From NCBI GenBank assembly GCA_016235545.1, contig JACRKB010000028.1:1-54766 (forward strand): a stretch of DNA of 54,766 nt. Reading direction: 5' to 3'. This stretch comes from Verrucomicrobiota bacterium. GTDB lineage: Bacteria; Verrucomicrobiota; Verrucomicrobiia; Limisphaerales; SXTU01. The position numbers and the translations under genes were made by a program. The notes under the pieces are model-generated. The model ran no database searches, had not been told where the DNA came from, and saw only the letters and a list, made by a program, of their open reading frames with translations. Shown here piece after piece: positions 7,596-51,467 of this stretch (the first letter of the stretch is position 1; every line of letters begins with the position of its first letter).

Positions 7596-10500
7596 ATGAA
7601 TCGTATCCTCACCGGCCTCCTCGGTCTGGGCTGCCTCGTTCTCGCCGGGGCGCAACCTGCGGCCGCGCAGACCATCACCACCACTGCCGGCACCGGCACG
7701 GCCAGTTCCACGGGCGATGGCGCATCCGCCGCCAGCGCCACTCTCAACGTCCCCTACCACGTCGTCGTGGACGCTGCTGGCAACCGGTTCATCGCCGAGC
7801 AGGCCGGTCACCGCATCCGTCGCGTGGACGCGGTGACGGGGAACATCTCCACCTTCGCCGGCACCGGCACGGCTGGCTTCAACGGGGACGGTGGCCCGGC
7901 GGCCGCTGCGCAGCTCAACAGCCCCAACGGCATCTGGATCGACAGCTTCAACGGCGATCTCATCATCGCCGACACCGGCAACCATCGAGTCCGCCGGGTG
8001 GTGGCCGCCACCGGCAATCTCATCACAGTGGCGGGCGACGGCACCGCCGGCAACGGTGGCGACAACGGCCCCGCCACCGCAGCGCAATTGAACGGCCCGT
8101 TCAGCGTCGTGGTGCAGGCAAATGGCAACATCCTGATCACCGATCAGAACAACAACCGCATCCGCTGCGTGGTCGCTCTCACCGGCAACCTCGTCCCCTT
8201 CGCGGGCACGGGAGTGGCGGGTTTCGCAGGCGAGGGAACCTCGGTCGCGCAGGCGCAAATGCGCCGGCCCAGCGGCATCACTATCCTCGCGCCGGACACC
8301 GTCTGCTTCACGGACACCGACAACCATCGCGTCCGCCGCATCGTCGCCGGGATCATCACAACCGTCGCTGGCAACGGGACTGCGGGTTTTGGCGGCGACG
8401 GCACGGCCGCCACCAGTTCCCAACTGAACTCCCCTGCTGGCGTGGCGATCCATCCCAACGGCTCGGTCTTCATCGCTGACACTGCCAACCAACGCATCCG
8501 GGTGGTGGGCACCGACGGGATCATCTCCACTTTCGCCGGCACGGGCGTGGCCGGTTCGAGCGGCGATGGTGGTCCCGCCACGGCCGCGCTGCTGAGGTTG
8601 CCGCACGGGATGGCCTTCGACAGCGGCACGAATCTCCATTTCGCCGACCGTGACAACCAAAAGGTCCGCCGCATCGGCGCGCCCTTGCCTGGCGTCCCGC
8701 CGGGCATCGCAGCGCAGCCGCAGCCCGCCTCGCAGGCCGTGGGCGCGAGCGTCTCGCTCTCCGTGACGGCCAGCGGCACCGCGCCACTGAGCTATCAATG
8801 GTTTTTCACGAACGGTCCCGTGGCCGGCGCGACCAGCCCCACGCTGACTTTCGTCAGCGCCCAGCTCGTGAACTCGGGCAACTATTTCGTCACCGTCACC
8901 AACGCCTTCGGCACCATCACCAGCGCGGCGGCGCTGCTCACGATCACAAACTCCACCGTGCCTCCCCCTCCGCCGAGCACCAACACGCCGCCAACGATCA
9001 CCACCGGGCCAGCAAGCCAGTCCGTTTCCCGCAGCAACAACGTGACCTTCGCCGTGGTCGCCGCCGGCTCGCCGCCGCTGGCCTATCAGTGGTTCTTCAA
9101 CTCCAATCTCATCAGCGGGGCGATCTCTTCGAGCCTCACGCTCACCAATGTCCAGACTGGCGCGGCCGGCGGCTACTTCGTCGTCGTGACGAACAGCTTC
9201 GGCAGCGCCACCAGCAGCGTCGCCACGCTCACCGTGTTGCTGACGCCCTTCATCACGGCGCAGCCAACGAACCTCACTGTGGCCGCCGGGAGCGCCGCCA
9301 CCTTCACAGTCGCTGCGGAAGGCACGCCGCCGCTGTCCTATCAATGGCGCTTCAATGGCGCGGACCTCCCCGGGGCCATCGCGCCGACGCTGGTGCTGGC
9401 CAGCGCACAGTCCGCCAACGCGGGCAGTTACTCCGTCCTCATCAGCAACCCGAACGGCAGCACGCCCAGCTCGAACGCGGTGCTCACCGTCAACTCACCG
9501 CCTGCGATTCTGGTCCAGCCGGCCAGCCGTGTTGCCACCGTCGCCTCGCCGGTCGCCTTCAGCGTGGGAGTGGGGGGCACCGCGCCCTTCACCTACCAGT
9601 GGCGTTTCAACGGCTCCGCCATTGCCGCCGCCACCGGCGCGAGCCACACCATCCCGGGCGTGGTCGGCACGCACGCCGGCGTGTATTCGGTGTTTGTCAC
9701 GAACGCCGTCGGCTCCGCCACCAGCGCCAGCGCCGCGCTCACCGTCATCCCAGCCCGGGTGCTCTCGCCGTGGGGCGCGTCCGCCGGTGGCCCCGGCCCG
9801 GATGGAGGCAACGCGGTGGCTGTGGACAACAACGGAAACGCGTTTGTGGCCGGCTACTTCACGGGCACCGCCACCTTCGGCACCAACCAGCTCGTGAGCA
9901 CCGGGGCGCGCGACGGTTTCCTCGCCAGATATGATCCCGCCGGCCAGTTGCTTTGGGTGCGCCGCTTCGGCGGCACAGGCTTCGACGATGTCAGCGCGCT
10001 GGCGCTGGACTCCAGCGGGAACTGCTACCTCGCCGGCAGCTTCGAGGGCGTCGCCGAGTTCGGCTCCGCCACGCTCACCAATTCCAACACATCCTCGTTC
10101 ACCGATGCCTTTCTCGCGAAGTTCAACTCCGGCGGCACAAATGTCTGGGCGCGCGCGCTGGGCGTCTCCGATGCAAACGACCTCGGCAGTGCCGTGGGCG
10201 TGGACGGCGCGGGAAATGTGTTCATCGCCGGCCTCTCGGTGCTGGCCAGCTTCAACGGAGTGACGCTCACGAACCACGGGCGCATCTTCCTCGCCAAGTA
10301 TGACAACGCCGGCACCCCGCAGTGGGCGCGCAAGGCCGGCGGCGGCCCCGGCGGTCAGTTCGACCAGGCCACCGCGCTGGCCGCCGACTTTGCGGGCAAC
10401 GTCTTCCTCGCTGGCGTGTTTGCCAGCGCGGCGGCCACCTTCGATGGCGCGCCGCCGCTGGCCAGCCGCGGCGGCACGGACGCATTTCTCGCGCGCTTCG

Positions 10501-11291
10501 ACGGGGCTGGCAGCCTCCAGTGGGTCCGGCAAATCGGCGGAGTTTCCGAGGACGGTGCCCGTGGCGTGGCGGTGGACAGCGCGGGCAACGCCTACGTCGT
10601 CGGCGAGTTCACCGGCACGCTGCAATTGCCCGGCACAAACCTCGTCGCCGGCATCGGGGAGCAGAATGCTTTCATCGCGCGCTTCAGCCCGGCGGGCGCG
10701 GTCAACTGGGCGCGCAAGGCGGGCGGCACGCTGCCCTCCGCCGCCCGCGCCGTGACGGTGGACCGCGGCGACCGCGTCTTCGTCGCCGGCTATTTCAGCG
10801 GCACGGCGACGTTCGGCGGGGAAATGCTCGCGAGCGTGGGCAACACCTACGATGCCTTCGTTACCCGCCTCGACACCAACGGCAACTTCGCCTTCGCGCA
10901 GCAGGCCGGCGGCAGCGACCTCGGCGGGGACGCGGCGCTGGGCGTGGCGGCGGATGCCGCAGGCAACGTGCTGCTCACCGGCTATTACAACGGCGCGGGC
11001 GCGCTGGGCAGCGCCAGCCCCGTGAGCGCGGGCAGCGAGGACATCTTCCTCACGCGCTTCAGCAACTTCACCGGCGACACCCCCCCGTCGCTGCTCGTGG
11101 TGCCGCAGGCTGGCCAGCTCCGCTTGTCATGGCCCGTCGGCGCGTCGAGCTTCATCCTTCAGACCACGCCCAGCCTGCTCAACCCGACGTGGACCGATGC
11201 CCTGGGCAGCTTGCTGGTGGAGACCAACGACCTGGTGATGACGAACACGCCCGGCCCGGCCAACCGCTTCTTCCGCCTGCGCAAGCCCTGA
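7596..11291 (+). CDS. Exported mosaic protein: NHL repeats, Ig-like domains, SBBP-type propeller
   Basis: A 1231-residue exported protein. A signal peptide spans about 1-30 (MNRILTGLLGLGCLVLAGAQ). About 30-340 holds NHL-type blades repeating the pattern ITTVAGNGTAGFGGDGG/PHGMAFD, a six-bladed beta-propeller signature. About 350-730 holds four Ig-like domains, each with a SYQWFFN or TYQWRFN core and GSY/YSV-NxxG closing. About 735-1140 holds repeats of the form DAFLARFDGAGSLQWVRQIG / VAVDSAGNAYVVGEFTG, as in SBBP propeller repeats. A C-terminal domain ending in NRFFRLRKP is common on large secreted verrucomicrobial proteins. No catalytic motif is visible, so a surface adhesion or scaffolding role is inferred. 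ATG 7596 is chosen because it begins the signal peptide. Base composition is very GC-rich and repetitive, so copy number may vary between strains. Confidence 0.85.
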   Translation: MNRILTGLLGLGCLVLAGAQPAAAQTITTTAGTGTASSTGDGASAASATLNVPYHVVVDAAGNRFIAEQAGHRIRRVDAVTGNISTFAGTGTAGFNGDGGPAAAAQLNSPNGIWIDSFNGDLIIADTGNHRVRRVVAATGNLITVAGDGTAGNGGDNGPATAAQLNGPFSVVVQANGNILITDQNNNRIRCVVALTGNLVPFAGTGVAGFAGEGTSVAQAQMRRPSGITILAPDTVCFTDTDNHRVRRIVAGIITTVAGNGTAGFGGDGTAATSSQLNSPAGVAIHPNGSVFIADTANQRIRVVGTDGIISTFAGTGVAGSSGDGGPATAALLRLPHGMAFDSGTNLHFADRDNQKVRRIGAPLPGVPPGIAAQPQPASQAVGASVSLSVTASGTAPLSYQWFFTNGPVAGATSPTLTFVSAQLVNSGNYFVTVTNAFGTITSAAALLTITNSTVPPPPPSTNTPPTITTGPASQSVSRSNNVTFAVVAAGSPPLAYQWFFNSNLISGAISSSLTLTNVQTGAAGGYFVVVTNSFGSATSSVATLTVLLTPFITAQPTNLTVAAGSAATFTVAAEGTPPLSYQWRFNGADLPGAIAPTLVLASAQSANAGSYSVLISNPNGSTPSSNAVLTVNSPPAILVQPASRVATVASPVAFSVGVGGTAPFTYQWRFNGSAIAAATGASHTIPGVVGTHAGVYSVFVTNAVGSATSASAALTVIPARVLSPWGASAGGPGPDGGNAVAVDNNGNAFVAGYFTGTATFGTNQLVSTGARDGFLARYDPAGQLLWVRRFGGTGFDDVSALALDSSGNCYLAGSFEGVAEFGSATLTNSNTSSFTDAFLAKFNSGGTNVWARALGVSDANDLGSAVGVDGAGNVFIAGLSVLASFNGVTLTNHGRIFLAKYDNAGTPQWARKAGGGPGGQFDQATALAADFAGNVFLAGVFASAAATFDGAPPLASRGGTDAFLARFDGAGSLQWVRQIGGVSEDGARGVAVDSAGNAYVVGEFTGTLQLPGTNLVAGIGEQNAFIARFSPAGAVNWARKAGGTLPSAARAVTVDRGDRVFVAGYFSGTATFGGEMLASVGNTYDAFVTRLDTNGNFAFAQQAGGSDLGGDAALGVAADAAGNVLLTGYYNGAGALGSASPVSAGSEDIFLTRFSNFTGDTPPSLLVVPQAGQLRLSWPVGASSFILQTTPSLLNPTWTDALGSLLVETNDLVMTNTPGPANRFFRLRKP

Positions 11292-39824: not shown

Positions 39825-40439
39825 TCAGGGAACCGGCTCCAACGACTCGACTCGCCACTTCTGGGAACCCATCGCCGCTGTGCCGTCGCGAATGGCCTTC
39901 ACCTGCTGCGGCGTGACGAAGGCGGCGCTGTTGCCCCACTCCGCGTTGCCACGGATGAACGTGGCGATGGCCGCAATGTCATCGTCGGAATACACATCCC
40001 GGAACGCGAGCATCGCGGGGTTGTCGTAGGTGATGTCCTTGACCTTGATGGGGCCTTCGACGGCATTGAGCATGATGCGAATCAGGCGGTCGGGCTTCTC
40101 GCGCACCACCCATTCGGAGCCGGCCAGCGGGGGGAAGTTCAGCGCGGCGGAGCCAAGTCCGGTGGCCTGATGGCAACCCACACAGCCCGCGGCGTAAAGC
40201 TGCGCGCCACGCTTATAAGACTTCACCGCCGGCGGATCATCCGTCTGCGGCGGCAGCGTTCTCATCCCGGCTTGGAAGACATCCGCTCGGAACGCCCCGC
40301 CGGTGCTCTCCACATGGAGGAAGCAGCCAAAGAGCAGGACAACCAGCAGGACGAAGGGCCACGCGCTTCCGCCCCCGGCGGCAATCGTCGGCTCGGTCTC
40401 GGCGCTCTCGGTCTCGGGCTTTTTCGTTTTCTGGCTCAT
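39825..40439 (-). CDS. Membrane-anchored monoheme cytochrome c (third subunit of cbb3-like trio)
   Basis: A 204-residue protein: cytoplasmic acidic head (MSQKTKKPETESAETEPT), one transmembrane helix (AWPFVLLVVLLFGCFLHVES) and a periplasmic cytochrome c domain with heme site CVGCH (about 91-95) and a likely Met ligand in YDNPAMLAFRD. It is last in the ACIII operon, overlapping the CcoO-like gene by 4 bp. Position and size suggest the role of CcoP in cbb3 oxidases, but there is one heme instead of two. Electron transfer to or from ACIII is inferred from operon membership. Confidence 0.8.
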   Translation of the reverse strand: MSQKTKKPETESAETEPTIAAGGGSAWPFVLLVVLLFGCFLHVESTGGAFRADVFQAGMRTLPPQTDDPPAVKSYKRGAQLYAAGCVGCHQATGLGSAALNFPPLAGSEWVVREKPDRLIRIMLNAVEGPIKVKDITYDNPAMLAFRDVYSDDDIAAIATFIRGNAEWGNSAAFVTPQQVKAIRDGTAAMGSQKWRVESLEPVP

Positions 40440-41524
40440 GGCTTCGCGGGAGCGTTCGCGCCTGCGGGCGCAGCGGGCTTGGCCACGGCGGGCGTGGGCG
40501 CTTCCGGCAGGCTGACATCTGCGCGCTGGGTCATCAAGTAGGCGACGAGCGCGTGCGCGTTGTGCCTTGGATAGACGGACGGCAGCGGCTCGCGGGCTGG
40601 TCGGATCGAAGGCTTGTTCGTGTCAAAGAGATAGCTGGCTGACGGACAGGTCGAGTCCTTCGCGAGCAGGCGCGGATTGTAGAGGTGGACCAGCAAGCGA
40701 TGCTCAAGCTCATCTGTGGTGTTCGTGGTCGCAAACTTCCACGGCGCGGCGAACTTCTCCGGCGCGCGCGTGCCGATGCTGGCGAGGTCGGGGCCGATGC
40801 GCACACTGCCCAGCAGCACGGGCGAGTCGTTGACGAAGTCGCGGGCCACGCTGCGGCGCGCGCCCCACCCGCGCTCGATGTCGGGGCCGAGATTGTAGAT
40901 GACCAGCTCGGCTTTGGCACCGGTGTCGGTGAGAAGCTTGACGACGCGCTCGGCGGCGTCTGGGCCGGCTTTGACCAGGATTTCCGCCGGAAGCTTGACG
41001 GCCAGATCGTTGACCGTGGAACCGGATGCCGGCCGGACAATGGCAGACTTGTCGTCAGCATGCTTCAGGAGCGCGAGGTCTTTTGTGAACTGGGCGAGCC
41101 TGGGCGCGAGATTCGTGTCGCCCGCCAGCGCCGGCGGGGGGGTGACGTTCTTGATGCCGAGGTCGGGACGAGCTTTCGCGAGCGCGATGAGCAGGTCGAG
41201 GTTGACGAGGTTGGTCGTGCCGCTCGCTGGCAGCGAGAGGTTGATGGTGCTGGCGTTGGAGCCGATGTCGTTGAGCCGGGCGCCGAAGAGCAGCGCCTCC
41301 TGCCGCACCTGCCGCGTGTGACACTGGCTGCAGCCAAGCGAGCGATAGACCTCCGCACCCTGCGCGGCGAGACCGGGACGGACGGCGGGGTGAACGTCCG
41401 AGGTGTTCGGAATGGGCGCAGGGGCCAGCGCGCCGAGCTGAAGCTGCGGGGCCATGACCAGCGCCGCCCACGAGCAGGCAAGGGAGAAGAGAGCGCCCGC
41501 GCCAATGATGGGGCCGTGTCTCAT
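40436..41524 (-). CDS. CcoO-like monoheme cytochrome c subunit, divergent
   Basis: A 362-residue membrane-anchored cytochrome c with one N-terminal helix (IIGAGALFSLACSWAALVMA). The heme site CSQCH (Cys65, Cys68, His69) lies in the CcoO-type context YRSLGCSQCHTRQVR. CcoO motifs return only at about 212-300 (GPDIERGWGARRSVARDF, SPVLLGSVRIGPDLASIGTR, HLYNPRLLAKDSTCPSASYL). The intervening about 130 residues are extra compared with standard CcoO. Where CcoO has the axial Met of a MP motif, this protein has Cys293 (TCPS), so heme ligation may differ. The tail is Ala/Pro-rich. It overlaps both neighbours by 4 bp. Confidence 0.8.
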   Translation of the reverse strand: MRHGPIIGAGALFSLACSWAALVMAPQLQLGALAPAPIPNTSDVHPAVRPGLAAQGAEVYRSLGCSQCHTRQVRQEALLFGARLNDIGSNASTINLSLPASGTTNLVNLDLLIALAKARPDLGIKNVTPPPALAGDTNLAPRLAQFTKDLALLKHADDKSAIVRPASGSTVNDLAVKLPAEILVKAGPDAAERVVKLLTDTGAKAELVIYNLGPDIERGWGARRSVARDFVNDSPVLLGSVRIGPDLASIGTRAPEKFAAPWKFATTNTTDELEHRLLVHLYNPRLLAKDSTCPSASYLFDTNKPSIRPAREPLPSVYPRHNAHALVAYLMTQRADVSLPEAPTPAVAKPAAPAGANAPAKP

Positions 41525-42936
41525 CGAGCACCTCCACAGCAGGCGGCGCAGCAGCGGCGCAGCGCGAGGGCAAAGTTCGCGAGGAACGCGAGCGCCGCGA
41601 GCGCCAGCGCGCCGTAGCCGACGGTGACGAGCTTGAGGTTGCTGGCAATTCCCGTGACCGCACTTTCAAGGAACTTGCTCTCCGCGCTGCCGTTGACCAC
41701 GCCTTGCTTGAAGCCCGCGAGTGTGAAGCCGATGCCGATGGCGAGCACGCCCAGCAACGACGCCCAGAACGCGAGGTCCGCAAGACCGTCCGAGGGCATC
41801 TCATCCTCACCGGTCGTGAGACGTGGGACGATGTGGTGCAGCGCGCCCAGGGCCGCGAGGCCGAACACGCCGAGCACCACGATGTCCGTGCGGGCGGTCG
41901 CGAAGAAGGTGAACTGCGTGAAGTGCCCGCCGAAGACCGCCGTGCGGAGGGTCACGCCGAGCAGCAGAATGGCCGCGACCAGCAGGAAGCGGAAGGTGGC
42001 GTTGCTTTTCCACGTCTCGGCAATTTTCCCCTCGGCAGTCTGCCACAGGCAGACGAGCAGCGCGATGACCGGGACGAGGACGAGCACGTTGGCTGCGCCG
42101 CTGACGGCTGGAATCCACGCTGGCACCGCCGCGAGCTGCGAGAGGCCGCCCCAGCCGCCGATGAGCAGCAGCAGCCAGAAGCCCGTCTGCGCGAGGCCCG
42201 GATTGGCGAGCGGACGCTTCACGGTCTTTGGCACGAAATAAAAGAGCACCGCGAGCGCGAAGCCAGTCAGGACGATTTGCAGCAGGTTGTTCGCGAACCA
42301 GCCGGCGACGATGGCCTGCACGACGCCGGGCACCTGCCAGCCAAGCAGCAGGCCCTGCGCGGTGGATAGAATCCATGGAAACCACAGCAGCGCCGCGAGC
42401 ACGAACCAGAGCGAGACATAGAGGTCGCGCTCGGTGCGGCGATGCAGCGTGACGAGCGCCCACGCGCCAACCAGCGCGTAGGAGGCAAAGAGGGGCAGCG
42501 CGGCGTAGAGCGGGAACTCAAGCAGGTCGAAGCCCGTGGCGTCGCCCGCGAGGATGCCGATGACGCCGACAGTCACGGCGATGTTCCAAAACATCCCCGC
42601 GATGAAAAGGCCGAGCGTGTTTGTGAGCGTCACGCGGCCGAGGCGCGCGATGAGCCAGAGCGAGAGGCCGAAGGCGGCCTGCAGCGCGAAGCCGTAGGTG
42701 AGGGCGTTGACGGCTGCGGGGCGGAGGCGTCCGTAGGTGACCCACGGGCAGCCTTCCATGAAGGTGGGGTTGTAGAGCTGGATGCTGGCGAGCAGCGCGA
42801 GCACCGCGCCGACAGCGAGCCATTTCACACCGCTGAAAGCAAGGAACAGCACCGGCAGCCGGCACGACGCCTCGACCTCCGCGACGGAGGGCGCGGTGGT
42901 GCAGGCGGTCTGGCTGCTGAGTTGGGCGGTCGTCAT
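41521..42936 (-). CDS. CcoN-like heme-copper oxidase subunit I lacking all metal ligands
   Basis: A 471-residue protein with about 12 helices that aligns by eye with cbb3 subunit I. It keeps TYGRLRPAAVNALTYGF (CcoN: RPxHTNA), WFPWILSTAQ, VPGVVQAIVAGWFANNLL (CcoN: WWYxHN), YFVPKTVKRPL, VPAWI and GALHHIVPRL. In each place where cbb3 oxidases carry a metal-binding His it has another residue: Ala75 for the low-spin heme, Asn216 for CuB, Ser266-Gln267 for the other CuB pair, and no His at all between 338 and 367 where the two helix-X heme ligands belong. Only four His occur in total. It therefore cannot bind the usual heme b, heme b3 or CuB. A scaffold or quinone/electron-relay role in an ACIII complex is inferred. 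A 4-bp overlap with the CcoO-like gene shows co-translation. Confidence 0.8.
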   Translation of the reverse strand: MTTAQLSSQTACTTAPSVAEVEASCRLPVLFLAFSGVKWLAVGAVLALLASIQLYNPTFMEGCPWVTYGRLRPAAVNALTYGFALQAAFGLSLWLIARLGRVTLTNTLGLFIAGMFWNIAVTVGVIGILAGDATGFDLLEFPLYAALPLFASYALVGAWALVTLHRRTERDLYVSLWFVLAALLWFPWILSTAQGLLLGWQVPGVVQAIVAGWFANNLLQIVLTGFALAVLFYFVPKTVKRPLANPGLAQTGFWLLLLIGGWGGLSQLAAVPAWIPAVSGAANVLVLVPVIALLVCLWQTAEGKIAETWKSNATFRFLLVAAILLLGVTLRTAVFGGHFTQFTFFATARTDIVVLGVFGLAALGALHHIVPRLTTGEDEMPSDGLADLAFWASLLGVLAIGIGFTLAGFKQGVVNGSAESKFLESAVTGIASNLKLVTVGYGALALAALAFLANFALALRRCCAACCGGAR

Positions 42937-43028: not shown

Positions 43029-43430
43029 TCACTCAAACGCGCTCGGCTTCTCCGGCGCCTTCGGCGGCGGGGCGGTGATTTTCTCGACGCGTGCGACGAA
43101 GGCGGCCCGGCTCGCGGCGGCGTTCTCGTAATCCTTCAAAGTCAGTTGCATCGCCGCCGTGACAGGGATGCGATAGACGCCCTTCGCCTTGTCGAGCAGC
43201 GCGGCGGTGCCCAACTCCTGCGCGGTGGTCTGGCGGATTTCGGACTGCGCCTTGGAGCGCTCTTTCGCGCGCGCATCGCGGGCGGCTTGGGCTCCGGTCT
43301 CGGTGTAGCTCTTGAGCATCGCGTTGAGGCCGACGCCCAGGAGGATGACGACGAGCGCGCCGAGGAAGTAGGCGGCCTTCGTGCGGCAGGCCGGAGTGCA
43401 GCAGGAGTCTTGAGATTCGGGGCAGCTCAT
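43029..43430 (-). CDS. Small Cys-rich membrane-anchored protein in the ACIII operon
   Basis: A 133-residue protein: N-terminal Cys cluster (MSCPESQDSCCTPAC; Cys3, 10, 11, 15), one transmembrane helix (AAYFLGALVVILLGVGLNAM), and a charged helical periplasmic part ending in a Pro-rich tail (APPPKAPEKPSAFE). The middle has YRIPVTAAMQLTLKDYENA, reminiscent of small periplasmic oxidase accessory regions (GIYRIPVEEAM-type). The gene is 12 bp after actF and 92 bp before the CcoN-like gene. Metal delivery or assembly is conceivable given the cysteines, but not shown. Confidence 0.65.
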   Translation of the reverse strand: MSCPESQDSCCTPACRTKAAYFLGALVVILLGVGLNAMLKSYTETGAQAARDARAKERSKAQSEIRQTTAQELGTAALLDKAKGVYRIPVTAAMQLTLKDYENAAASRAAFVARVEKITAPPPKAPEKPSAFE

Positions 43431-43442
43431 CGTGGGTGCAGG

Positions 43443-44837
43443 TTAGTGGGCAGCCTTGCCGGAAGCGGGCTCGACATAGACGCCCATCGCCTCGGCCACG
43501 CGCGGGTCACGCTGCGGGTAGGGCGGGTGGGCGTTGAAAGCGCGGGTGAACATGAAGGTGAGCACAGCCAGCATCCCACCGAGGGAGAGCACGTCGTAAA
43601 TGCCGAGGTGCAGGCCGTCAGGATAGAGCACCGGGCCGATGTTGAACTGGAGGTCGAGGTAATGGCAGGTCCATGCCCAGGCAGCGAGCATGCTCATGGC
43701 CGTGAAGTTCAGCTTGTTCCGAATCGGCAGCAGGAAGAGGAACGGGAACCAGAAGTGGCCGAAGATGGTGAGATAACCGACCCACTTCCATGTGCCCGCC
43801 TCGCGCGCGACATACCAGAAGGTCTCCTCCGGCACGGCAGCGTTCCAGATGAGGAAGTATTGGCTGAAGTGGATGTAAGCGTAGAAGACGGTGAAGGCGA
43901 AGAAGAGCTTGCCGCAGTCGTGGAAGGTCACTTCGCGCGTCACATCCTTCAGGTCGCCACGGTTGCGGAAGTAGAGCAACAGCCAGTAGGTCGTGATGGC
44001 CATCACCCACACGCTGCCGGCGAAATACACCACGCCATACATGGTGGAGAAGAACTGGTGCGAGAGCGCCTTCATCCAAAAGATGGCCGCGCCCGTCAGG
44101 CTGAAGGCGAAGGCGAAGATGCCGAAGGCAGCGTAGCGGCGCATGACGCGCGTGTGGACGGCGGCTCCGTCCTTGTCCTGGGCGAGCGAGGCGCGGCGCA
44201 GGCCGTGGGCGACGAAGCCCCAGACCAGGAAAATCACGCCGGAGATGATGTAGAAGGCGGTGATGGTAAAGAGCGGAAACTTCGCGAGCAACGCGTGGTC
44301 GGGGTTGCGCTGCATCTCCTCGCTCATCCACGGGTAAATGTCCCGCGCGAGGAAGCCGATGGGCAGCCAGAGGATGAACATCGTCGGGAACAACTGGCAG
44401 GCGATGTGTTCGAGAAAGCGGCGGATGGGCACCATCCACTGCGCGTCGAAGAGGTGGTTCAGGATGACGATGAACAGCGCGCCCAAGCAGAGGCTCAGGC
44501 AGAACATGTAAGCCGTGAGATAGGCATAGCCGAACTTCTTCAGCTCGGTCGGGTGCCCGGCGGGACCGTGGCTGTGGTCGTGCCCTGCGTGCGAAGCCTC
44601 GGCCTGATGCTCAGCCTTGGCTTCCGGCTTTGCGTGCTCGGCGGCCACGGCTCCGTTGCCCAGCAGCGCGGCGGCGAAAAGCGCGACCAAGACGGCGGCA
44701 ACGCCATGGCGCAGACCCGCGAAGAACCGTGCCGGCGACTTCCAGTCGCCGCCTTGCGTGCCTGCGAGCACCGCCGACGGCGATTGCAAATCGCCGGCAC
44801 GGGCTGCGGAGAGAAGGTTGATAGCGTGCGAGGTCAT
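43443..44837 (-). CDS. actF: ACIII subunit ActF (NrfD-like quinone-binding membrane subunit)
   Basis: The 464-residue product has ten membrane helices from about residue 105 on, including TELKKFGYAYLTAYMFCLSL, FPTMFILWLPIGFLARDIYP and AYIHFSQYFLIWNAAVPEET, which match ActF, the second NrfD/PsrC-like subunit of alternative complex III. The first about 100 residues are unusual. Residues 12-40 are encoded by a nested palindrome (GDLQSP and GDWKSPA mirror each other), then comes a signal-like hydrophobic run (VAAVLVALFAAALLGNGAVA), then a His-rich stretch (EASHAGHDHSHGPAGH). ATG 44837 lies 4 bp after the ActE stop and no better start exists downstream before the hydrophobic run. Confidence 0.9.
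   Translation of the reverse strand: MTSHAINLLSAARAGDLQSPSAVLAGTQGGDWKSPARFFAGLRHGVAAVLVALFAAALLGNGAVAAEHAKPEAKAEHQAEASHAGHDHSHGPAGHPTELKKFGYAYLTAYMFCLSLCLGALFIVILNHLFDAQWMVPIRRFLEHIACQLFPTMFILWLPIGFLARDIYPWMSEEMQRNPDHALLAKFPLFTITAFYIISGVIFLVWGFVAHGLRRASLAQDKDGAAVHTRVMRRYAAFGIFAFAFSLTGAAIFWMKALSHQFFSTMYGVVYFAGSVWVMAITTYWLLLYFRNRGDLKDVTREVTFHDCGKLFFAFTVFYAYIHFSQYFLIWNAAVPEETFWYVAREAGTWKWVGYLTIFGHFWFPFLFLLPIRNKLNFTAMSMLAAWAWTCHYLDLQFNIGPVLYPDGLHLGIYDVLSLGGMLAVLTFMFTRAFNAHPPYPQRDPRVAEAMGVYVEPASGKAAH
44726..44803. repeat. Nested palindromic element inside actF
   Basis: The left arm 44726-44752 and right arm 44776-44803 are near-perfect inverted repeats, and each arm is itself palindromic (GGCGACTTCCAGTCGCC; GGCGATTGCAAATCGCC). 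Translated on the minus strand the arms read GDLQSP and GDWKSPA. A partial relative (GTGCCGGCGACTTGCAGCCG) occurs at about 51791-51810. Confidence 0.85.
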
Positions 44838-44841
44838 GGCG

Positions 44842-45495
44842 TTACTTCAGCGTGGCGCGTTCAGCGGCGGGGACTTCATCCAGTGTCGCGAATCGCGCGC
44901 GCTGGAGGGCGCGGACGTAGGCGACGATGGCCCAGCGGTCGTTGATTTCGATGTTCGCGGCGTAGCCCTGCATGTTCGGGGCCTTGCCGTCGCTGATGAT
45001 TCGGAACACCTGGCCGTCGGGGATGATGATGGCGTTCTTGCCCGCCGCATCCACCAATGGGGCCACCACGGCCATCGCGCCGATTTTCTTGGTGATGCCG
45101 TTGCCGTCGCCGGTCGCGCCGTGGCAGGGGAGACAGGAGATGTTGTAGCGCTCGCGGCCCCGGTCCAGAAGGGCGGTGGTCACGGGCACCGGGATCGTGG
45201 CTACGAAGTTGGTCGTGCCGGGCACCATGCCGGTGTTCTGTGCCGTGCCCTGCCAGGTGTCGTTGCCCTGGTCGCCGATGCGCTGGGCGACGGTGCCGGC
45301 AACAAGGTGCTGCGAGCTGCGGCCGTCCGCGAAAAAGCTGTTGGGCACCTGCGGGCGGAGCTTGGCCTGGCGCACCATGTCGTTGAAGATTTCCAGCGGC
45401 GGTTTGCGGAAGTCGGTTCCACGCCGTCCGGCGATGCCAAAGACGGTCAGCGCCAGGAGCGCGACGCCAAGTAGAAAAGCGAAGAAGTAACGCAT
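44842..45495 (-). CDS. actE: ACIII subunit ActE (monoheme cytochrome c)
   Basis: A 217-residue lipid- or helix-anchored cytochrome c with N-terminal hydrophobic segment FFAFLLGVALLALTVFGIAG, the ActE-type block FRKPPLEIFNDMVRQAKLRP (DM-xQ-K-xRP region), and heme site CLPCH (about 119-123) in RYNISCLPCHGATGDGNG. The axial Met is probably in GKAPNMQGYAANI. ActE accepts electrons in ACIII and may pass them to the terminal acceptor. It is 2 bp from actD and 4 bp from actF. Confidence 0.92.
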   Translation of the reverse strand: MRYFFAFLLGVALLALTVFGIAGRRGTDFRKPPLEIFNDMVRQAKLRPQVPNSFFADGRSSQHLVAGTVAQRIGDQGNDTWQGTAQNTGMVPGTTNFVATIPVPVTTALLDRGRERYNISCLPCHGATGDGNGITKKIGAMAVVAPLVDAAGKNAIIIPDGQVFRIISDGKAPNMQGYAANIEINDRWAIVAYVRALQRARFATLDEVPAAERATLK

Positions 45496-45497
45496 GG

Positions 45498-46028
45498 TCA
45501 GTCCTCCACCATCTCGATGTGCTTGCTGCCGGCGGACGCGAGCAGCCTGCGGGTTTCCTGGTCGTTGAACTTCGGGTCCGCCGTCTCGATGACGAGGATG
45601 AACTTGTCATGGGTCGCGCCCTGGCAAAACTTTCGGTTCTTCAAGAGCGGGTGGTGCAGGCGGGGCAGGCGGTTCAAGAGGAACATTCCAATAAGGGAGC
45701 CGAACGAGGCGAAAAGAATCGTCAGCTCATAGCTCACCGGGAAGCTGTAGAACGGGCTGAACATGGGCTTGCCACCGATGACGATCTTGTAGTCGAAGGC
45801 GTTCATCCACCAGATCATCGTCATGCCCGTGGTGTAGCCGGTCACGCCCCCGAGGAAGGTGAACCAGCCGACCTTGGAGTTCGGGAGGCCCATCGCCGCG
45901 TCCAGTCCGTGGACTGGGAAGGGCGTGTGGACATCCCACTTGGAGTAGCCGGCGTCGCGCACCTGCTCCGCCGCGCGCATCGCGTCAGCCGGGGTGTCGA
46001 AGACCGCCATGAGGCCGTGAGCGTTCAT
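45498..46028 (-). CDS. actD: ACIII subunit ActD (DUF3341)
   Basis: A 176-residue membrane protein with two helices (VGWFTFLGGVTGYTTGMTMI and YELTILFASFGSLIGMFLLN) flanked by soluble segments, opening [20 protein letters not shown], as in ActD/DUF3341 proteins. KWDVHTPFPVHGLDAAMGL is a recognisable conserved block. It anchors or stabilises the complex. Its ATG overlaps the actC stop by 1 bp. Confidence 0.92.
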   Translation of the reverse strand: MNAHGLMAVFDTPADAMRAAEQVRDAGYSKWDVHTPFPVHGLDAAMGLPNSKVGWFTFLGGVTGYTTGMTMIWWMNAFDYKIVIGGKPMFSPFYSFPVSYELTILFASFGSLIGMFLLNRLPRLHHPLLKNRKFCQGATHDKFILVIETADPKFNDQETRRLLASAGSKHIEMVED

Positions 46029-47467
46029 TAGTGGTTGCCTCCGTGCTTGGCGCCGCCCTGCGGGTGGTGCGGGTCAGCCTGCGGCGTGACGCCCTTCACC
46101 TCGGAGATGGCAATCATCGGCAGGTAGCGCATGAAGAGGAGGAAGAGGGTGAAGAAAAGTCCGAAGCTCCCGAGGAACGTGCAGACATCCACCCAAGTCG
46201 GGCGGAAGTAACCCCAGCTCGACGGCAGGTAATCGCGGTGAAGCGAGGTCACGATGATGACGAAGCGCTCGAACCACATCCCGATGTTGACGAAGATGGT
46301 CACGATGAAGACGAAGACCATGTTGGTGCGGCACCACTTGAACCAGAACAGATGCGGGCTGATCACGTTGCACGAGATCATCCACCAGTAGCTCCACCAG
46401 TAGGGGCCGAACGCGCGGTTCTTGAACGCCGCCAGCTCGTAGGGGTTGCCGCCATACCATGCGATGAAGAACTCCATGCCGTAGGCGTAGCCCACGATGG
46501 AACCTGTCGCGAGGATGACTTTGCACATCAGCTCGACGTGCCGCACGGTCACGATGTCCTCCAGCTTGCAGAGCGTGCGCAGCGGAATCAGGAGGGTGAG
46601 CACCATGCCAAAGCCGGAGAACACGGCGCCGGCGACGAAGTAGGGCGGGAAGATGGTCGTGTGCCAGCCGGGCACCTGCGACACCGCGAAGTCGAACGAC
46701 ACGATCGAGTGCACGGAGAGCACCAGCGGCGTCGAGAGGCCGGCGAGGAGCAAATAGGCTTTCTCGTAGTTGCTCCAGTGGCGGTTCGAGCCGGTCCAGC
46801 CGAACGCGAAAAATCCGTAGAGGAATTTCTTCACCTTGCTCGTCGCGCGGTCGCGCATCGTGGCGAGGTCGGGGATGAGGCCGGTATACCAGAAGAGCAA
46901 CGAGACCGTGCCGTAGGTCGAGACGGCGAACACGTCCCACAGCAGCGGCGAACGGAAGTTGACCCAGATGTCGTAGTTGTTCGGGATGGGCGGCAGCCAC
47001 CAGACGGCATACCAGATGCGGCCCACGTGGATGATGGGGAAGATGCCGGCGCAGGCCACCGCGAAGAGGGTCATCGCCTCGGCGGCACGATTGACGGACG
47101 TGCGCCACTTCTGCCGAAGCAGGAAGAGAATCGCCGAGATGAGCGTGCCGGCGTGGCCGATGCCGATCCAGAAGACGAAGTTTGTGATGTCCCAAGCCCA
47201 CGCGACGGGCTGGTTCAAGCCCCAGACGCCCACGCCGGTGGAGATGAGGTAGCCGATGCAGCCAAACATCATCAGCATCATGGTGGAGCTGATGATGAGC
47301 GCGGGCAGCCACCACTTGGGCGCCTCGCCCTCGCAGATGCCGGCGATGTGGTCGGAGAGCCAGCCGATGCTGCGGTTGTGCAGCACCAAGGGCTGGCGCT
47401 CCAGCTCCGCGGGCGGCGGCGCAATCTTCACCGAGGACGGGACGGGGTGTTCAGCGGCGGCGCTCAT
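46028..47467 (-). CDS. actC: ACIII subunit ActC (NrfD-like quinol-oxidising membrane subunit)
   Basis: A 479-residue protein with ten membrane helices. [40 protein letters not shown] (quinone-site region with GIGHAGT), [20 protein letters not shown] and [11 protein letters not shown] are typical of ActC. It oxidises menaquinol or ubiquinol at the periplasmic side and passes electrons to the Fe-S subunit ActB. Its ATG overlaps the actB stop by one base (TAATG). Confidence 0.95.
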
Positions 47468-50400
47468 TAGTGCTTCGCTCCCTTCTGTTCACCGGCGGGG
47501 GCGTGTCCGTGGCCTTTCATTGGGTCGGAGTGGGAGATGTCCTTGTATTCCTCCAGGCTCCAAATCTTCGCGTCGGGCATGGCGAGGTTCACGTTGCGGA
47601 CGCGTGCGAGGTAGGTCGTGCGCGGCTTGTTGTCGAGGAAGCCGAGGACCGAGTAATTGCGCTCGTGGGCCTTGAGCTTGGAGACCTCGCTGTTCGGGTC
47701 GAGGATGTTTCCGAAGGCGATGGCGCCTGCGGGGCAGGCCTGCTGGCAGGCGGTCTTGATCGCGCCTTCCTTCACCGTCACGTCGTTGCCCGCGCCGGCC
47801 TTGACCTTCTGGCTGATCTTCGCACCCTCGATGCGCTGCTGGCAGAACGTGCATTTCTCCATGACGCCGCGCATGCGCACGGTCACGTCCGGGTTGCGTG
47901 CCATGGTCACGAGGTCAATCTCGTCGCCGGATCGCTGGCCCAGCGGGCCTTTGTAGAGGGCCACATCCAGCTTGAAGAAGCTGTCGGCCATCTTGCCGCC
48001 GCCGATGGGCCGCTTGTTGAAGTCGAAGAAGTTGAACCGCCGGACCTTCCACGCGCAGTTGTTGGCGCAATACCGCGTGCCGACGCAGCGGTTGTAGGCC
48101 ATCACGTTGATGCCCTCGTCATCGTGGGCCGTGGCGTTGACCGGGCAGACGCTCTCGCACGGCGCGCTCTCGCAGTGCTGGCACATCATCGGCTGGGTCA
48201 GCATCTGCGGGTCGTCAATCCACTTCTTCGTGGCCTGCAGCTCGTCGCGCTCGACGAGGTTGACGGTGTCCGGATTGCCCTGGCTGCCGGTGGCGTTGCT
48301 CAGGAAGGCGTCAATCATCCCGCCCTGCTGCTTCTTCTTCGGGTCCGCCGCGTAGTAGCGGTCAATGCGCATCCAGTGCATCTCGCGGCCCTTGGCCACC
48401 TGGTCCTTGCCGACGATGGGGATGTTGTTCTCGCTCTGGCAGGCGATGACGCACGCGGAGCAGCCGGTGCAGGCGTTGAGGTCCACGACCATTCCCCATT
48501 GGTGCGTCTTGCTGACCAGCTCGGGGTGTGTCTTGTAAGGATGCTCGTAAATGTTCTTGATGGAACCGTCCGGATTCTTGACGAGGAAATCCGTGTGGGC
48601 GTCGAGGCCCATGTTCTTCGCGAAGTCAGGCTTCGTGAGGAACTGGTCCACGTTCGCCTCGCGCACGACCGGGCGGCCATGCAGCGTCCAGTGGTCCTGC
48701 GTGCAGATGAACGCGTGCGTGCGGCCCGTGGCCTTCACCGCCGCGCCGGTCACGAAGCCGGCGCCGCCCGCGCGCAGCGGGTAGGCATTGAAGCCGACGC
48801 TGCTGTTCTCAAAGCTCGCGATGCGGCCCCACTTGCGGCCATAGCCCAGCGCGAGGCCGAGCGTGAAATCCGCCATGCCGGGCTGAATCCAGATGCCGCC
48901 CTCGACGGTGCGACCTTCCTTCGAGATGGCAATCACGTCGCCATTCTTCAAGCCGAGCTGTGTCGCCGTCTCGCGGCTGATGAGCACGGCGTTGTCCCAG
49001 ACGAGCTTGGTAATCGGGTCGGGCAGCTCCTGGAGCCAGCCGTTGTTCGTGTATCGACCATCGTCCACGCTGGCGTCGCGGTGGAAGACAACTTCGAGCT
49101 TGTCCTTCGAGGGCGCGGAAGCCGTGCCAGCCGCGCGAAGCGCACCGACGACCCCCAGCACATCGAAGGAGGGCTTGACCGGCGCGGACTTGGTGCCGGC
49201 GATGAAACCGTCGTGCAGAAACTGCTTCCACTTCTCCTCGTCAAGCGTGCCGCCGGTGCGGACGGCAAACGTCTCGCGGGTCAGGTCGTAGGCGCTTGCG
49301 GTCGCGTTGCCCAGCAGGCGGGCCAGCACTTCGCTCTCCGTCAGGCCGGCGAAGAGCGGCGCGATGAGCGGCTGGATGGCGACCACCGTGCCGTCACTGG
49401 TGCGGGCATCGCCCCATGATTCGAGATAGTGCGCGGCAGGCAAGTGCCACGTCGCGCCGGACGCCGACTCGTCCTCGTGGCAGCCCAGGCGGACGAGGGT
49501 CTTGGCTGTCTTGGTAATCTCGCTCCACGTCTCAGCCGCGGTGTAGGCCGGGTTTGCGCCGAGAACGACAACCGTCTCCGCGCCAACGGCAGCGGCGAGC
49601 CCGGCAGGGGGCTTCGGGGCCGCGTGCAGCTCAATCGTCTTGCCCACCGCGCCGAGCACTCCGTTCATCACATGCGCGAGCACATGAACGACAATGGGCT
49701 GGCGCTGGCCGGCAACCACGAGGACCGCGCCCCTGTGCGCGACGAGGTCTTTGGCGCATTCGGAAATCCACTTGGAGTCCACCTTCGCGCCCGCCGCGAT
49801 GGCGGCGGTGTCGAGCGGGAAGGGGGCGCCTGCCTGGCTGAGCACTTCCGCTGCAATCTGAGCCGCAACCGCCGCAACCTGGCTCGGAGCCACGCGGAGA
49901 CGGTGGTCGGCATTGCCGCCGGTGAGCGTCATCAGCGACTCGACGGCGTAGAGGCGGTTGATGAGGTCGTCCTTCTTGGCCGCGTCGGGCTTGGCAATCT
50001 TGCGGCCCTTCGCGAAATCGCGCGTGTAGCGATACATCTCGTCCTCGCCGCCGAGGAAATCGCAGTCGAGGGAGAGGATGCGCTTGGCCTGGTCGAACTT
50101 GAAATAGGGCGTGACCTGCTTGCCAGTCACGAGGCTCACGGCCTGCGTGTGGATGGTGGAATCCACCGCGTCGTAATTGGCCCAGACAGCGTTCGGCAAC
50201 TTCGCGGCGACGGCCCCCTGCAGCCGCGCGCGCGTCGGCGAGCTGTTGCTCTCCGCGATGATGGCGAGGCCGCGACCACCGTTGGCCGCAGCGCTCTTGG
50301 AGATTTGCGCGAGCGCGTCGAGGGCGTCCACTCGCTTGGCAATATTTCCCTTGTTGCGGAAGTGCTGCGCGCGGTCCGGGTCATACAGGCCGAGGACGGA

Positions 50401-50820
50401 GGCTTGCGCGAACTGGTCGGTGCCCGCCTGGTCAGGATGCAGCGGATTTGCCTCGACCTTCGTGGGCCGGCCATCGCTTGACTTCGCCAGCAGCGGAACC
50501 GCTCCCGTGCGCGTGGGCATCGCGGTCGCGAAGTGCTGCGGGATGCCGTGGATGTAGCCCTCCGGCTGTTTGCCAAAGGGATAAATGTTCTCCGTCGGAC
50601 GGCGGCAGCCGGTGAGGCCAAAGCCCGCCAGCATGAACGACGCGGACATGAGCTTCATGAAGTCGCGTCGCGACTCGGCGGCGGTCAGCTCGCTGGCCCC
50701 GGCGGGGAATTCACGCTCGGCCCACTCCTGAAGCTGGGCGGAGTTCGCCATCGCCTCGGGGCTGCGGAAGTATTGCGGGCCGGTTTCCGGCTCGGGACAG
50801 ACTGGAGGGATGAATTTCAT
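47467..50820 (-). CDS. actB: ACIII subunit ActB (iron-sulfur / molybdoprotein-like fusion)
   Basis: The 1117-residue protein fuses a molybdopterin-oxidoreductase-like N-terminal part with a C-terminal ferredoxin-like part, as in ActB. A twin-arginine signal with lipobox is seen at about 50-75 ([20 protein letters not shown], then TGC), so it is exported folded and probably lipid-anchored. Four-Cys cluster motifs occur at about 780 ([14 protein letters not shown]), 876 ([14 protein letters not shown]), 910 ([13 protein letters not shown]) and 988 (CTFCQQ, followed by [11 protein letters not shown]). As in other ActB proteins, the N-terminal domain lacks an evident cofactor Cys/Ser ligand. ATG 50820 overlaps the actA stop (ATGA). 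Confidence 0.95.
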
Positions 50821-51467
50821 CGGTGGCAGACGGAGCAGCTCTCGCCGGGATGCACGTTCCAATCCTTGACCAGCTTCGCGCCTTCCTTCTGGGCAAAGCC
50901 CTCGGGGGCCTGCCAGTCGAGGTTGAAGACCTGATCGTTGGGACGAATCTTGGCCGCCGGGTCACGGTGGCATTCGAGACAGAAGGCCATGCCCAGCGAC
51001 TTGCTGTGGCGCACCTCGTCCATCTTGTTCACCGGGCCGTGGCAATGCACGCATGAGACACCGCGGTTCACGTGGACGGAGTGGTTGAAATAGACGAAGT
51101 CCGGGGTCTTGTGGATTTGCACCCAGGGAATCGGCTTGCCGGTCGCCGCAGACTCGCGGACGAGCGCGAGCTTGGGGTCGTCCTTGAGCACCTGGTTGTG
51201 GCAGTTCATGCAGGTGCTGGCCGCCGGGACGTTGGAATACCAGGACTTCTCCACGCCGTTGTGACAGTAGCGGCAATCCAATCCGAGCTGGTCCGCGTGG
51301 ATCGCATGGCTGAAGGCCACCGGCTGCACCGGCGTGTAGCCCACGCGCGCATACTTCGGCGTCATGTAATAAGTCACGCCCGCCGTGACCACGCCACCGA
51401 CGATCATCCCGCCCACGATCACCATCGCGGGCAGCTTGTTCGTCCATTTCGGAAAAATGTCTGACAT
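50817..51467 (-). CDS. actA: ACIII subunit ActA (pentaheme cytochrome c)
   Basis: A 216-residue protein with one N-terminal membrane helix (AMVIVGGMIVGGVVTAGVTY) and five heme-binding sites: CRYCH, CMNCH, CVHCH, CLECH and CSVCH. This equals the pentaheme ActA of alternative complex III. The block QPVAFSHAIHADQLGLDCRY is characteristic. It is the first gene of the operon, with a CRP/FNR-type palindrome 35 bp upstream. Translation is coupled to actB through ATGA. Confidence 0.95.
   Translation of the reverse strand: MSDIFPKWTNKLPAMVIVGGMIVGGVVTAGVTYYMTPKYARVGYTPVQPVAFSHAIHADQLGLDCRYCHNGVEKSWYSNVPAASTCMNCHNQVLKDDPKLALVRESAATGKPIPWVQIHKTPDFVYFNHSVHVNRGVSCVHCHGPVNKMDEVRHSKSLGMAFCLECHRDPAAKIRPNDQVFNLDWQAPEGFAQKEGAKLVKDWNVHPGESCSVCHR

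Follow-up and report, generated by a model that had tools for sequence, protein, structure and literature searches.

A CcoN-like oxidase subunit without heme or copper ligands is encoded with alternative complex III in Verrucomicrobiota

Heme-copper oxidase genes serve to predict microbial oxygen respiration and its affinity. In C-type (cbb3) oxidases, subunit I, CcoN, has CcoO and CcoP as operon partners, and verrucomicrobial methanotrophs as well as Opitutaceae have been reported to possess a C-type oxidase linked to alternative complex III (ACIII) (PMC8498564, with reference to Refojo et al. 2010; this and the other papers named here are cited from excerpts). ACIII-caa3 and ACIII-aa3 supercomplexes have been described from Rhodothermus and Flavobacterium (PMC5928083, PMC8552683). 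Here, we analyzed a stretch of 54,766 nucleotides from a Verrucomicrobiota bacterium (assembly GCA_016235545.1, contig JACRKB010000028.1), referred to as the window, which encodes a CcoN-like protein in an ACIII operon. This protein is named NLS here, and its CcoO- and CcoP-like partners are named OLS and PLS. NLS is probably a metal-free pseudo-oxidase: it would once have been the catalytic subunit of a C-type (cbb3-like) oxidase linked to ACIII and would have been retained as a membrane scaffold.

NLS resembles the CcoN subunits of known cbb3 oxidases (3mk7, 8smr, and 9g6b) in fold (template modeling [TM] scores of 0.85 to 0.87), length, and framework motifs, and OLS and PLS resemble CcoO and CcoP. 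Unlike CcoN, NLS has no heme or copper ligands and no active-site Tyr, and it sits in an ACIII operon. It shares its genomic position and phylum with the reported ACIII-linked C-type oxidase (PMC8498564), and records titled Opitutaceae hold copies with a full ligand set (e.g., L099, L100, and L102), like the reported enzyme. In the excerpts, the ACIII-linked protein is treated as a cbb3 oxidase, whereas 89 of 114 family members compared here, as well as those of four genomes with particulate methane monooxygenase (pMMO), lack the ligand set. The NLS module would share with the supercomplexes the coupling of ACIII to an oxidase through a relay of c-type hemes; the excerpts on those supercomplexes mention no CcoN-like subunit, whereas an inactive CcoN-like module lies beside ACIII here. 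Among the papers listed by our literature searches, we recognized none that describes an inactive ACIII-linked subunit I.

The gene is the following:

41521 to 42936, minus strand: NLS, CcoN-like subunit I without heme or copper ligands, 471 amino acids (PF00115, phmmer, AlphaFold2)

An earlier note on this DNA, made from its letters alone, had read the same minus-strand open reading frame (ORF) of 471 residues as CcoN-like, intact, and normal in codon use, and all of this held. The frame is full length, with a GC content at third codon positions (GC3) of 0.88, compared to 0.82 to 0.92 in nine other operon genes, and a codon use correlation (r) of 0.96. NLS matched the heme-copper superfamily profile COX1 (PF00115) at 106.1 bits (E = 2.5e-30; cutoff, 34.8). 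With NCBIfam ccoN (TIGR00780) it scored 102.8 bits, below the curated cutoff of 583, which was also missed by two ligand-bearing ACIII-linked relatives tested (230 and 248 bits). The closest solved structure by sequence was CcoN 3mk7 (phmmer E = 1.8e-23). An AlphaFold2 model based on 41 aligned sequences predicted the fold with high confidence (mean predicted local distance difference test score [pLDDT], 90.7; predicted TM score [pTM], 0.92), and its top Foldseek matches were CcoN chains (TM score of 0.86 and 2.3 Å to Pseudomonas stutzeri 3mk7_A, with 22% identity in the structural alignment). The earlier note also had NLS translationally coupled to its neighbors. This stands for the downstream side only, where the stop overlaps the next gene's start by 4 bases; upstream, a gap of 92 bases separates NLS from a small gene.

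Ligand columns were read from the canonical CcoN of the same genome (L002), which has every ligand; ligand roles are those of P. stutzeri CcoN. The corresponding positions in NLS, together with a Cys discussed below, are as follows:

42712 to 42714, minus strand: A75, in place of the low-spin heme b His of helix II (3mk7 pairwise and family alignments)
42289 to 42291, minus strand: N216, where helix VI of CcoN has its CuB His (3mk7 pairwise and family alignments)
42136 to 42141, minus strand: S266-Q267, where helix VII of CcoN has its His-His pair for CuB (3mk7 pairwise and family alignments)
41884 to 41892, minus strand: R349-T350-D351, in place of the helix X His-x-His of heme b3 and heme b (alignments)
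42748 to 42750, minus strand: C63, Cys in the loop before helix II (column counts)

NLS has four His in total (positions 165, 338, 367, and 368), and none of the six metal-ligand His that mark the heme-copper superfamily is present. The Ala75, Asn216, Ser266, and Gln267 substitutions and the count of four His given in the earlier note are read directly from the protein, and the helix X His pair that it had found lacking is indeed absent, with R349 and D351 in those columns. Neither the pairwise alignment with 3mk7 nor the family alignments placed a His at a ligand position; the second residue of the helix VII pair aligned with Q267 or with a gap, depending on the alignment. The helix VII active-site Tyr of CcoN is replaced by G260. 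The same alignment recovered six His and the Tyr in 7/7 canonical CcoN proteins and in 25 sister proteins, and the loss is therefore not a failure of the method. As far as residues can tell, ligand loss argues against O2 reduction by NLS.

The loss extends well beyond the window. In what follows, proteins with all six His and the Tyr are called ligand-bearing, and every other state is called inactive-type. When 58 genomes were searched (the relatives' set, own genome included), 54 had a match to NLS. All 10 other genomes of the same genus matched at full length with 73 to 86% identity, and none of their copies has any of the six His; the case that would have spoken against the earlier note, loss in this copy alone, was thus not what we found. 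One genome (G028) has a canonical CcoN and, at a contig edge, a short fragment presumed to be NLS. The distribution data came from a scan of named genomes and a phylum sample confined to Verrucomicrobiota. The scan used one peptide pattern, with the best 80 of 207 relatives kept, and these were mostly titled Verrucomicrobiota. After duplicates were collapsed, the first set held 114 distinct members, window included: 25 keep six His (and the Tyr), 3 keep two, 33 keep one, and 53 keep none. Eighty-nine members are therefore inactive-type, and the active-site Tyr was found in 0/89 of these and in 25/25 ligand-bearing proteins. The ligand-bearing sister form occupies the same operon slot, which shows the origin of NLS.

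In the phylum sample of 240 genomes, ACIII-linked copies were inactive-type in 33 genomes and ligand-bearing in 18, apart from a truncated copy (L222); 3 of these 51 proteins overlap with the first set. Among the 33 inactive-type proteins, 7 have no ligand His, 20 have one, 4 have two, 2 have three, and none has six. A strict all-or-none split, which held in the first set (0, 1, 2, or 6 His), was broken by the two proteins with three. Twenty-three further genomes matched only outside the NLS range, and the three such matches checked (L218, L219, and L223) were ligand-complete, with no act genes nearby. Seven genomes that consist of a single contig (G127, G151, G181, G208, G231, G261, and G332) also have inactive-type copies, and draft assembly is therefore not the cause. 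On the sequences compared, the observation in the window is the visible edge of a family-wide event.

Several single cases were seen in the survey. A few relatives are titled Klebsiella, Proteobacteria, or Omnitrophota, titles that look mislabeled; so do the titles of L037 (Akkermansia muciniphila) and L039 (a Klebsiella pneumoniae metagenome-assembled genome), which carry NLS proteins 84% and 82% identical to that of the window. Both forms coexist in one draft genome, G048 (L117 and L118): the ligand-bearing NLS there (C548) is accompanied by OLS and PLS, and the inactive-type NLS (C174) by a full ACIII. In G127 and G208, the ACIII-linked copy is inactive-type, and free-standing ligand-complete relatives (L216 and L217) have OLS- and PLS-like neighbors and no act genes. 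The shortened NLS of L222 (G187, 9015 to 10543; a 346-residue ORF) precedes an OLS-like cytochrome in a 20-kb locus where no act gene was found, and is perhaps a relic.

The history of the loss was approached with trees. In a tree of 121 proteins, built with the ligand columns omitted, 14 inactive-type proteins were nested within a ligand-bearing group; those with informative titles are Opitutae or Opitutaceae, and the window's relatives were placed elsewhere. The starred branches of this tree force at least two changes. A thinned tree of 88 rows, from which 33 mostly long or near-identical rows had been dropped, rejected a single clade of all 64 inactive-type rows (approximately unbiased test, p-AU = 0.0135) and placed the 53 inactive-type rows outside the Opitutae group in one clade. 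The ACIII tree (71 rows) required five changes, or nine losses when regain is disallowed; its difference from the NLS tree could stem from NLS exchange between operons or from long-branch effects. Because all of these are quick trees with long branches, the safe claim from the sequences is that ligand loss happened at least twice. Regain of six His and the Tyr was judged implausible, and the ligand-bearing form was therefore taken to be ancestral.

Gene decay, or an artifact of assembly or alignment, might also produce such a loss. Inactive-type proteins do diverge faster: at 80 to 85% ActC identity, median NLS identity was 38% for inactive-type pairs (n = 147) versus 72% for ligand-bearing pairs (n = 28), and one copy (L222) is truncated. 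However, the median ratio of nonsynonymous to synonymous substitution rates (dN/dS) of NLS was 0.172 (28 pairs among the window and L035 to L041, eight same-genus sequences), next to 0.085 for ActC and 0.174 for ActF in the same sequences (28 pairs each) and 0.198 for OLS and 0.240 for PLS (15 pairs each). With these ratios, with the loss common to all 10 other same-genus genomes, and with intact copies in the seven single-contig genomes, decay or artifact is very improbable. Full-length open frames in 57 of the 58 listed NLS-range and CcoN-range matches were set aside as not bearing on decay. Judged by these substitution ratios, NLS is under purifying selection; its sequence is relaxed, yet its fold and frame are constrained. 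A loss repeated across verrucomicrobial ACIII operons and a dN/dS well below 1 are what the earlier note had expected of a functional but dead subunit, and both were found.

The remaining features of the operon are as follows:

50817 to 51467, minus strand: ActA, multiheme cytochrome c (PF14522, 1.2e-13)
47467 to 50862, minus strand: ActB, molybdopterin-type and iron-sulfur domains (PF12838, 1.5e-15; TIGR04519); the true start may lie downstream of the ORF start at 50862
46028 to 47467, minus strand: ActC (NrfD) (PF03916, 4.7e-20)
45498 to 46028, minus strand: ActD (PF11821, 2.5e-66)
44842 to 45495, minus strand: ActE, monoheme cytochrome c (PF13442, 6.8e-9)
43443 to 44837, minus strand: ActF, ACIII membrane subunit (cluster position and conservation; without a Pfam match)
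43029 to 43430, minus strand: small protein between ActF and NLS, 133 residues (ORF)
40436 to 41524, minus strand: OLS, CcoO/FixO-like monoheme cytochrome c with an N-terminal helix and a long insertion, 362 amino acids (PF02433, 1.9e-9)
41318 to 41332, minus strand: OLS heme c motif CSQCH, C65 to H69 (C65, C68, and H69 invariant in a 40-row alignment)
40646 to 40648, minus strand: OLS C293 at the CcoO axial-Met position (Met to Cys in the window genus)
39825 to 40439, minus strand: PLS, CcoP-like monoheme cytochrome c with an N-terminal helix, 204 amino acids (PF00034, 1.1e-12)
40170 to 40184, minus strand: PLS heme c motif CVGCH (sequence)

NLS is encoded with actABCDEF, and the order ActF-(small gene)-NLS-OLS-PLS is maintained across loci. 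The small protein had no Pfam or NCBIfam match at E = 0.01; tblastn found it in 65/87 inactive-type and 13/27 ligand-bearing loci (copies not collapsed). ActD was matched in 51 of the 58 genomes of the relatives' set, one match being weak and partial (26 bits, in G014, which is without NLS), and all 50 genomes with full-length ActD also have NLS (own genome included; G028 counted by its presumed fragment). In the four genomes with NLS and without ActD (G022, G024, G037, and G044), the contig ends within about 2.5 kb on the ACIII side. NLS is thus both encoded with ACIII and found together with it. This bears on a second explanation, that NLS is an assembly or maturation factor for the adjoining c-type cytochromes or for a separate oxidase rather than a stable subunit. 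Its place in an operon with OLS and PLS would suit such a factor, as would the oxidases encoded elsewhere in the genome, but NLS is linked to ACIII and not to other oxidase loci. In three genomes (G018:C114, G029:C260, and G032:C17), a second ActD lies 4 to 6 kb from a PF00115 gene of 485 to 506 bits, and the inactive-type NLS goes with the other ACIII. We consider an assembly role unlikely.

OLS and PLS have the heme c motifs of cbb3-type CcoO and CcoP partners. Immediately after NLS, 104 of 110 distinct loci have an ORF for a c-type cytochrome; the remaining six lie at contig ends. The axial Met of OLS is present in 69/80 inactive-type proteins (8 have Cys, 1 has Lys, and 2 have gaps) and in 22/22 ligand-bearing ones, and that of PLS is present in 71/74 inactive-type and 19/19 ligand-bearing loci. 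OLS is longer in inactive-type loci (median, 267.5 residues; n = 80) than in ligand-bearing loci (219.5 residues; n = 22; P = 2e-7, uncorrected for relatedness). The OLS structure model was weak (pLDDT, 72.3; pTM, 0.53) and had no match in the PDB below E = 0.001, and the identity of OLS therefore rests on the FixO profile. One Foldseek match, to the C-terminal domain of ribosomal protein L7/L12 (1ctf; probability, 1.00; E = 0.26), was weak and odd for a cytochrome c.

How NLS might work with these partners can be outlined. Having lost the ligands of heme b, heme b3, and CuB, NLS would yet have stayed as the membrane core, anchoring OLS and PLS and docking both to ACIII as a tethered c-heme relay. 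Electrons from menaquinol would pass from ActB through ActA/ActE to the hemes c of OLS and PLS and then to an A-type (caa3) oxidase or, in some species, to another periplasmic acceptor; oxygen chemistry would take place at the acceptor oxidase and not at NLS. Since the residues that bind iron and copper in CcoN are missing, NLS probably carries partner proteins rather than consuming oxygen. A scaffold role is suggested by the c-heme partners, by the operon linkage, by an A-type neighbor in 13 loci, and by the retained CcoN framework: 42 of the 71 columns that hardly vary in ligand-bearing and canonical proteins are retained by 60% or more of the 89 inactive-type proteins, and the six His and the Tyr are among the 29 lost. 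The best reading is the one that the earlier note proposed, an oxidase without metal that was repurposed to work alongside ACIII. Its selected, ligand-free, CcoN-like protein tied to ACIII stood up (50/50 ActD genomes), and its docking scaffold fits the fold, the partners, and the A-type neighbor; what we infer is that NLS binds no metal and physically joins ACIII, together with the electron route and the precise job.

The candidate acceptors were surveyed as other PF00115 genes. In the phylum sample, an A-type CoxI follows the module in 13/30 long inactive-type loci versus 0/4 long ligand-bearing loci, and these CoxI proteins are 59 to 64% identical to the CoxI of our genome, which encodes a canonical CoxI and a canonical fused CcoN-CcoO elsewhere. 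Another PF00115 gene was present in all 30 inactive-type genomes found by way of named loci, in each of the nine inactive-type genomes with one or a few contigs (always with a match above 430 bits), and in 45/51 inactive-type genomes of the relatives' set. Our genome also encodes a 523-residue protein (L004, 1216 to 2787; C97) whose match to PF00115 is confined to two segments around helix X, and similar partial matches occur in several relatives.

Several observations weigh against this scheme. The 13 CoxI-adjacent loci all come from three families (f50, f51, and f55), and neither the window nor any of the 114 loci L035 to L148 showed an A-type CoxI next to NLS, so the adjacency is not general. 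Six of the 51 inactive-type genomes (G002, G008, G025, G049, G053, and G055) had no other PF00115 match, and in G024 the only other match is a contig-edge fragment. Feeding an A-type oxidase is therefore not the role everywhere, unless the drafts are incomplete; G025 and G049 have a full bd oxidase. This suggests that the acceptor differs among species or that drafts are incomplete. Another oxidase was also found in 20/22 ligand-bearing genomes, so redundancy does not separate the two forms, and the contrast in oxidase inventory (30/30 and 45/51 versus 20/22) was too weak to be relied on. The count of 104/110 following cytochromes is partly circular, since CxxCH formed part of the OLS search, and the OLS axial Met is Cys in the window genus and Cys, His, Arg, Lys, or Ala elsewhere. 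Finally, two inactive-type proteins (L177 in G122 and L179 in G275) keep both low-spin heme b His with the active-site set gone. "Metal-free" may therefore not hold for every member, and these two are possibly a halfway state.

The same two proteins would favor a third explanation, in which NLS still binds heme or another metal through Met, Cys, Lys, or a single His and stays an electron carrier. C63 fits as well, being present in 57/89 inactive-type proteins (in both ligand-loss groups), 2/25 ligand-bearing proteins, and 0/7 canonical proteins, as do H367 and H338, present in 10/11 and 8/11 copies of the window genus. But only M1, C25, C63, and K237 stand out among inactive-type Met, Cys, and Lys columns at 60% conservation, the best-kept His (H55, 73%; H389, 65%) are both missing from the window protein, and residues in the ligand columns differ freely from clade to clade. 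Retained metal binding is accordingly doubtful, a little more so than an assembly role. We give a similarly low rating to a gain of new membrane chemistry, such as quinone binding or proton conduction in support of energy conservation by ACIII, for which the lost cofactors would leave internal space. The polar residues E140 (98%) and Y233 (92%) are kept in inactive-type proteins; since they are equally kept in ligand-bearing and canonical CcoN proteins, they are not new, and other than C63 no conserved polar position specific to the inactive type was seen among the 89 proteins. A scaffold without metal remains the preferred reading of NLS.

The question takes a particular form in methane oxidizers. 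According to the excerpts, ACIII adjoins a cbb3 oxidase in verrucomicrobial methanotrophs (PMC8498564, PMC6688271), and in one of these a high affinity for oxygen has been associated with the cbb3 oxidase (PMC6688271). Four genomes of 2.2 to 2.5 Mb (G151, G163, G181, and G261) each had three or four matches to ammonia monooxygenase or pMMO and were therefore taken as verrucomicrobial methanotrophs. In the NLS linked to their ACIII, the six ligand columns read S, E, S, H, F, and V; this protein scored 49 to 51 bits with PF00115 in three genomes and went undetected in the fourth. An A-type CoxI follows NLS in all four, and no match of canonical CcoN strength was found in any of them. In G181 (L187, 11478 to 18045), eight ORFs between ActF and the small gene resemble a nos cluster in size and order; this insert fits the layout published for Methylacidiphilum caldifontis IT6, in which nos genes lie inside the ACIII cluster and aa3 and cbb3 genes adjoin it (PMC11102522, excerpt). 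On balance, the sequences favor the view that a terminal-oxidase subunit was stripped of its metal sites more than once and kept for very long as a structural arm of ACIII, and that the cbb3 oxidase credited to these methanotrophs is that inactive protein, so that they would have no cbb3 oxidase.

Ordinary profiles thus label as an oxidase subunit a protein with none of the metal ligands, which bears on the prediction of respiration from genes. Most sampled members of this Verrucomicrobiota operon type lack the ligand set, copies from the four methane monooxygenase genomes included. With both forms in the same operon slot, the family offers a natural series for following the passage from enzyme to putative scaffold and the hand-off of electrons from ACIII.

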